Assembly: GCF_001687625.2 (NCBI RefSeq)
Contig: NZ_CP016538.2
Location: 1,828,501 to 1,892,500 of the forward strand
Origin: Planococcus maritimus
Lineage (GTDB): Bacteria > Bacillota > Bacilli > Bacillales_A > Planococcaceae
Direction of reading: 5' to 3'
DNA length: 64,000 nt
The position numbers were made by a program, and so were the translations under genes. A model generated the notes under the pieces. It was not told the DNA's origin, ran no database searches, and was given only the letters and a program-made list of their open reading frames with translations. How positions within the stretch are numbered: the first letter of the stretch is position 1; the number at the start of each line of letters is the position of its first letter. Below are positions 56,396 to 57,212 of this stretch, one piece after another.

Positions 56396-56409
56396 CTGCC
56401 TTTTATCAA

Positions 56410-56443
56410 CAGCGTCCCTTTTATATTAGGGCGCTGTTTTTTT
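56410..56443 (+). terminator. Terminator of the aldo/keto reductase gene
   Basis: CAGCGTCCC and GGGCGCTG arms with a one-base irregularity, loop of about 10, followed by T7. Confidence 0.85.
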
Positions 56444-56650
56444 ACCTCTTGTTTCAGGCAAGCCATATTCAATTCATTTAGGCCTTTTGAATCTTTTTTA
56501 TGTGTTGCCATGACTTCCCCCCCCATATAGCTAAAATAAATAGAATCGCTTTTCCTTTAGGTAGCGGGTTTTTACATCTTTTCTTCTTCAACTTCCAAAA
56601 AAGACCGATTTTCTACCTAGTCGATTTAATTTATCGAAAAGGACTTTTGC

Positions 56651-56708
56651 AGGTTTGAAAGAATACCTAGAAGTGAATATACTGATTACGACTGAAATTT
56701 TCAAACCT
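56651..56708. repeat. 10-bp inverted repeat bracketing a promoter
   Basis: AGGTTTGAAA (56651-56660, containing the -35) and its perfect inverse TTTCAAACCT (56699-56708, just downstream of the expected start site). The arms are 38 bases apart. Confidence 0.7.
56655..56683 (+). promoter_or_regulatory. Predicted SigA promoter for the orphan gene at 56738
   Basis: TTGAAA (56655-56660), 17-base spacer, TATACT (56678-56683), one mismatch each. Confidence 0.72.
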
Positions 56709-56737
56709 TACTTTCAAGAAAAATGGGGGCGTGCAAA

Positions 56738-57154
56738 ATGATGAATTTTTACTTGACCCAATCCAAAAAATCTTATCAGTCAGCAGACAGAGATGCCGTA
56801 TCGATGCATTCGTACCTGGTTGTTGAAACTGTGACAAGATCCCTTGGACAGGAGTTTAAAAATCATAAGCTGGCATGGGAAACGGAAGACAGCTGGCTGC
56901 TTGCAGACGCCCCGGAAAAAATCACACGCATGCCGGATGGCTATCAACGTTTCGAAATTTCAGAGCCTGTGTTCGCTTCTTTACGCTTATTGGCGGAAAC
57001 TCAGCCCAAGGAACTTCATACCTTGACGCCTTTTTCTACAAATCGGACGTGTGAAACTTTTAACGAACAGCATCCGCAAGCGACAAAAGAATTTCACTTC
57101 AACGATGTTGCAAAAAGCCTCAAACAGATTGTCAAAGATATTATGACGGTCTAA
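56738..57154 (+). CDS. Hypothetical protein, no family recognised
   Basis: A 138-residue soluble protein with no membrane segment, signal or motif I know. Composition is ordinary, with one cysteine (in TNRTCETF). The start is ATG 56738, with GGGGG 8 bases upstream; an ATG at 56723 lies before that site. It has a good promoter, a 10-bp inverted repeat around it, and a strong terminator, so it is a regulated single-gene unit. No equivalent is expected here in B. subtilis. Confidence 0.75.
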   Translation: MMNFYLTQSKKSYQSADRDAVSMHSYLVVETVTRSLGQEFKNHKLAWETEDSWLLADAPEKITRMPDGYQRFEISEPVFASLRLLAETQPKELHTLTPFSTNRTCETFNEQHPQATKEFHFNDVAKSLKQIVKDIMTV

Positions 57155-57164
57155 ACTTGTCCAC

Positions 57165-57203
57165 AAAAAAGACGGAGAACCTTTTGGGTTCTCCGTCTTT
57201 TTT
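57165..57203. terminator. Bidirectional terminator
   Basis: GACGGAGAACC (57171-57181), loop TTTT, GGGTTCTCCGTC (57186-57197), with A6 and T6 flanks. It serves the convergent orphan gene and flotillin gene. Confidence 0.93.
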
Positions 57204-57212
57204 ATGTGGCTG

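Follow-up and report, generated by a model that had tools for sequence, protein, structure and literature searches.

Overlapping SigH-type and SigA-type promoter candidates upstream of a little-known Planococcus gene

In Listeria, the promoters recognized by SigH have been described by a consensus made of a -35 element, (A/G)(A/C)AGG(A/G)(A/T)(A/T)(A/T), a spacer of 11-12 nt and a -10 element, (A/G)(A/G)(A/C)GAA(A/T) (PMC4754846). For the LMRG_00908-dnaG-rpoD operon, the SigH -35 element is given as GAAGGACTT (PMC4754846, Table 2), and an operon carrying two SigA promoters in addition to one for SigH is likewise described there (PMC4754846). In Planococcus, no study of the SigH regulon was found in the literature, and a search on Planococcus, SigH, overlapping promoters and DUF1259 in Bacillales, covering titles and the starts of abstracts, returned nothing on the gene that is the subject of this report.

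This gene, termed F in the following, lies in a stretch of 64,000 nt of Planococcus maritimus DNA (the window, to whose first letter all coordinates refer unless a contig is named), which belongs to a genome available as a single contig of 3.28 Mb. It occupies positions 56738..57154 of the plus strand (138 codons plus stop) and, as sequence reading and homology searches indicate, codes for a protein of a so far unnamed Planococcus family. Its regulation is most likely of an ordinary kind, in a little-known gene: in the reading that we favour, with a probability of about 60%, F would be a single-gene unit with two overlapping promoters, one of SigH type (56638-56664) and one of SigA type (56655-56683), the second being placed inside and just downstream of the first. 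A basal level of transcription would come from SigA, with SigH increasing it at the entry into stationary phase or upon starvation; the use of both promoters, and its timing, we infer from sequence comparison.

Counting the copy in the window, an ortholog of F, at 81-100% identity, was found in 14 of 46 genomes of Planococcus. The mechanically found open reading frame begins at an in-frame ATG at 56723, which only two of the 14 orthologs have (L001 and L002), so that 56738 or 56741 is the likely translation start. The gene is flanked upstream by an aldo/keto reductase gene (PF00248) and downstream by a convergent flotillin-like gene (Band_7, Flot). Between F and the latter, a 20-bp hairpin of 95% complementarity (57162..57206) likely acts as a two-way terminator; on the other side, a terminator-like hairpin followed by a T run, found by sequence reading and absent from the output of the terminator scan, lies 3' of the reductase gene (56409..56440, plus strand). 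With hairpins on both sides, F is probably transcribed alone. Among 30 flotillin loci examined, from 30 of the 46 genomes, F adjoins the flotillin gene in 13, of which 12 also contain the reductase and the remaining one ends at a contig end, and neither F nor the reductase is found within the 1.5-kb flank (shorter in one case) of the other 17. In the genome with the fourteenth ortholog (G028), the adjacency of F and flotillin follows from coordinates; the flotillin-like gene there (contig C13, 1913486-1914178) appears interrupted, being represented by two overlapping matches with one internal stop each.

The SigA-type promoter consists of a -35 element, TTGAAA (56655..56660), and, 17 nt after it, a -10 element, TATACT (56678..56683), both on the plus strand and both invariant in the 14 orthologs. 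It agrees with TTGACA/TATAAT at 10 of 12 positions with a spacing inside the accepted 16-18 nt, a match that is weak when taken alone, a promoter scan finding 9 SigA-type sites in 4 kb versus 4.5 in shuffled sequence. On the same strand, the proposed SigH -35 element, AAAGGACTT (56638..56646), is followed 11 nt later by the proposed -10 element AAAGAAT (56658..56664). The whole, AAAGGACTT-N11-AAAGAAT, fits the published Listeria consensus (PMC4754846) at 15 of 16 positions in 13 orthologs and at 14 of 16 in the other (L014), a score of 15/16 on the same strand being attained by 14 of 1000 shuffled versions of the region. The sole mismatch is a C at the seventh position of the -35 element (AGGACTT), for which the consensus allows A or T; this C is also found in the LMRG_00908 element as tabulated (PMC4754846, Table 2). 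A sigH gene is present in the genome (351.3 bits against a TIGR02859 cut-off of 294.8). Other regulators were considered by comparison with their consensus sequences and set aside: in a SigB reading, AGGTTTGA-14-GTGAAT, the -10 element fits at 4 of 6 positions, and ComK, CodY, Fnr, SigD and sigma-54 gave poor fits by eye.

Sites of the SigH type are enriched in the genus. A looser form of the pattern occurs 37 times in the P. maritimus genome versus 13 times in the reversed control, and the form AGGANTT-N14-GAATA ten times versus none. Across the 46 genomes, the latter form is found at 315 sites against 88 in the control, exceeding it in 45 genomes and falling below it in one (G022); the 315 sites should include 13 at F orthologs, given that 13 of the 14 upstream sequences read GAATA. 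Eight of the ten P. maritimus sites lie upstream of a same-strand gene, the other two (L104 and L162) having no gene directly downstream. From Pfam matches on fragments, the site-bearing genes are spoVG, dnaG, two glyoxalase-family genes, F itself and genes for an alpha/beta hydrolase, an enoyl-CoA hydratase and an aldehyde dehydrogenase; the hydrolase site also overlaps the end of a mechanically found open reading frame on the opposite strand. SpoVG is a classical SigH target. The base before GAAT is A at F and C in seven of the other nine sites. As an observation in its own right, the sites at the seven other genes (L161, L105, L098, L101, L113, L150 and L154) provide a sketch of a Planococcus SigH regulon.

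When the upstream DNA of the 14 orthologs is aligned, a block of 69 nt (56641..56709, plus strand), which starts with GGACTTTTG and ends one base beyond the right arm of the inverted repeat discussed below, has 53 of its 69 columns invariant, in agreement with the statement of an earlier note on this DNA that a promoter is to be found here. Mean pairwise difference is 0.050 in the block, compared with 0.109 for the coding sequence and 0.295 for fourfold sites, of whose 42 columns 25 are variable. A 44-nt pattern drawn from the block is found in exactly the 14 ortholog-bearing genomes, once in each and with 0 mismatches at the specified positions, and at no other gene of the 46 genomes with up to 3 mismatches allowed. 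Thus, the constraint on the block and its presence in the same 14 genomes establish that selection on it is real and, within the genus, specific to F. Within columns 1-52 of the block, none of the 22 promoter-element columns varies, as compared with 11 of the other 30 (hypergeometric probability 0.0009); for the columns belonging to SigH elements only, the count is 0 of 10 versus 11 of 30 (0.024), and the SigA columns alone give 0.038, values that are optimistic in that the SigH elements were picked after the alignment had been viewed. Also invariant are the spacer AGGTTTG (whose AGGT is outside the elements), AAGTGAA and TGAAATTTT, which two bare promoters would not require and at which another factor may bind. 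A second conserved stretch is seen some 150 nt further upstream, at 56476-56500 of the window and at the matching place in the orthologs. In 11 of the 14 orthologs (L004-L014) it reads GGACnTTTG and continues into DNA rich in C and T, whereas the window and the two relatives closest to it have GGCCTTTTG or similar; the stretch resembles the GGACTTTTG of the block.

The F protein itself gave no match above curated cut-offs, or with E < 0.001, in Pfam, NCBIfam, PHROGs and PADLOC (the best NCBIfam row has E 0.029 and scores 12.4 bits where the cut-off is 714), which bears out the earlier note's remark that it matches no known family. The same note's description of F as an orphan does not hold, for the protein belongs, as a divergent member, to a family without a name that is found mostly in Planococcus: a profile of 36 members (A2) detects this family in 42 of the 46 Planococcus genomes and in 2 of 204 other genomes of the same bacterial family, both of one genus. 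In P. maritimus, the profile, which includes the F sequence itself, finds F at E 1.2e-40 as the sole copy; elsewhere a genome may hold many copies, G035 for example having nine. As to the earlier note's statement that no B. subtilis counterpart is known at this place, a species-wide pattern scan returned close relatives only, namely nine loci, all from Planococcus, at 81-98% identity, the nearest being that of P. maritimus MKU009 (98%), and a search with the single sequence reaches paralogs at E 1.2e-11 and weaker. The 36 members gave only scattered Pfam hits (E 0.003 and above, no family in more than three members), and a PDB sequence search returned five hemolysin E chains only (E 0.013-0.13), which were not credited. 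Aligned with 29 paralogs, to which it is 19-32% identical, F shares with them a core in which K, W, F and P columns are invariant, together with an identical predicted order of strands and helices. It differs from most of them by an extra C-terminal stretch of about 25-30 residues and, unlike many, has no small partner gene, here called A, beside it.

Gene A (about 130-150 residues) ends at most 100 nt upstream of an F paralog, or overlaps it, in 20 of 44 copies (e.g. at L048, L051, L052, L054 and L057) at the loci fetched, a subset of those that the profile detects, and lies within 600 nt in 24 of the 44; at L048, A and F occur in tandem copies, with a gene for a Crp/Fnr-type regulator in their midst. 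Three A proteins were scanned: two show weak similarity to DUF1259, with E values of 0.002 and 0.06 that do not reach the cut-off, and the third does not. P. maritimus also has an A-like gene without an adjacent F, about 525 kb from F (L045:446-910, corresponding to G000:C1:2410579-2411043, minus strand). Within about 300 nt upstream, five F paralogs (L016, L017, L023, L024 and L025) share a leader of ~200 nt that ends close to a hairpin resembling an intrinsic terminator (RNAalifold consensus -24 kcal/mol). It could be an attenuator or riboswitch-like leader; the five loci have no Rfam match at gathering score.

The product of F is predicted to be a small beta-rich protein. The AlphaFold2 model has a mean pLDDT of 82.7, being confident over residues 1-110 and below 50 at residues 111-129, and that of one paralog has a mean of 87.7. 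With the two models, Foldseek gave best E values of 8.7e-3 and 0.11 in the PDB and of 0.010 in a viral library, none at or below 0.001, and VIA-align gave best Z values of 4.5 and 4.3. As in the sequence searches, there is no usable fold match for these models, a result that does not show a new fold.

How the symmetry of the upstream region fits with these features has to be considered in some detail. The left arm, AGGTTTGAAA (56651..56660), which contains the SigA -35 element, and the right arm, TTTCAAACCT (56699..56708), are exact 10-bp inverses 48 nt apart; like the 138-residue protein, the TTGAAA-17-TATACT promoter and the two TACCTAG copies (56614-56620 and 56664-56670) listed in the earlier note, they are read directly in the sequence. 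The window holds 9 exact 10-bp inverted pairs with a gap of 20-50, at 5 places, and none of 40 window shuffles reaches this number (mean 2.95, sd 2.3); when the 342-bp intergenic region is shuffled, 51 of 2000 versions hold at least one such pair. The pair is therefore real and locally unusual (~2.5%), and alone it is weak evidence. Single copies of AGGTTTGAAA, with up to 1 mismatch allowed, are not enriched in the window (6 versus 7.5 in shuffles). From the arms the earlier note had derived an operator at which one dimeric repressor would bind both sites and loop the DNA, a proposal that we consider quite unlikely. Searching the genome for further pairs, as that note advised, found the exact pair at one place at gaps 25-50 and nowhere at gaps 0-30, so that a dedicated repressor would have to be a local or auto-regulator, and the F protein has no detected DNA-binding domain. 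Exact arms do frame the SigA promoter in 11 of the 14 orthologs, and the invariant TGAAATTTT abuts and overlaps the right arm, as a repressor might demand; but the three others (L010, L012 and L014), all keeping the gene and the promoter, have a broken right arm and no compensating change in the left, whereas half-sites of a paired operator are expected to be both kept or changed together. The absence of the repeat in gene-keeping relatives, which the earlier note had named as evidence against its proposal, thus applies to these three and not to the other eleven. Over the 14 orthologs, 4 of 10 columns vary in the right arm and none of 10 in the left, which means that the inverted repeat itself is not what selection keeps; nor are the TACCTAG copies conserved (exact in 7 and 8 of the 14 in the upstream alignment, respectively), and they were rejected as sites adding to the arrangement. 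The left arm would instead be the place where the SigA -35 element sits across the SigH spacer and -10 element, by which it is largely accounted for, and the right arm would be a partly conserved flank of the start site rather than half of a paired operator. A local regulator may still be involved. An RNA stem between the arms, which the same note had envisaged for a start further upstream, is unlikely: neither predicted start site would transcribe the left arm, the predicted folding of the 5' leader is no more stable than that of shuffled versions (z +1.0, with 168 of 200 shuffles equal or better), and the stem in the alignment consensus pairs both arms but overlies the promoter, with changes on both sides in 1 of 18 pairs. 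Near F, Rfam gave 8 sub-threshold rows (7 microRNA models and 1 Hsp90_CRE), all on the terminator hairpin.

The symmetry could also derive from a pair of SigA promoters placed back to back over a common -10 region, of which the minus-strand one would make a short leftward RNA. The promoter scan does find a possible divergent promoter, TTGAAA-17-TATATT (56676..56704, minus strand), with a score of 10/12 equal to that of the plus one and a -35 element intact in 12 of the 14 orthologs, but this element is broken in L012 and L014, and to the left of it most of the DNA shows poor conservation, with no conserved reading frame seen by eye, which makes such an arrangement very unlikely. If the SigA promoter, with both hexamers invariant in all 14 orthologs, were the only one, an activator or operator would have to explain GGACTTTTG upstream and AAGTGAA and TGAAATTTT around the start. 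The existence of conserved stretches outside any promoter element would be in keeping with this, as would a small palindrome, AAAAG-GA-CTTTT, read at 56637-56648; yet the distance between GGACTT and GAAT matches the spacing at the SigH-type sites of the same genome, and a block confined to one gene makes no regulon visible, so that we regard a SigA promoter alone as unlikely. Going beyond the two overlapping promoters that we favour, the block might form a three-part switch, with a SigH promoter, a SigA promoter and a start-site operator. The gene under its control would be the founding or domesticated representative of a lineage-specific family whose other members spread as duplicated A-F pairs, and its product a stationary-phase response protein of Planococcus's own making, with a fold not yet seen; we hold this extended view to be distinctly improbable.

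With its two proposed overlapping promoters, F offers a definite candidate member for a Planococcus SigH regulon, and the locus illustrates how an eye-catching inverted repeat can arise as a by-product of promoter overlap. The family, unnamed in the libraries searched, is worth naming and is a possible target for studies of genus-specific genes.

As compared with known systems, the TTGAAA-17-TATACT promoter of F resembles SigA-type promoters in its 10/12 agreement with their hexamers and differs from them in having no TG at the extended -10 place and in the strong conservation of its flanks. The proposed SigH promoter is similar to that described for LMRG_00908-dnaG-rpoD of Listeria monocytogenes in its -35 core, AGGACTT, in the 11-nt spacing and in the -10 core, GAAT (PMC4754846). 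Its -10 element is AAAGAAT as opposed to GGCGAAT at LMRG_00908, and the forms listed for Listeria comGA and lytG end in AGAAT (PMC4754846). Unlike the LMRG_00908 case used for comparison, the SigH-type site of F, as read from its letters, would overlap a SigA-type promoter.
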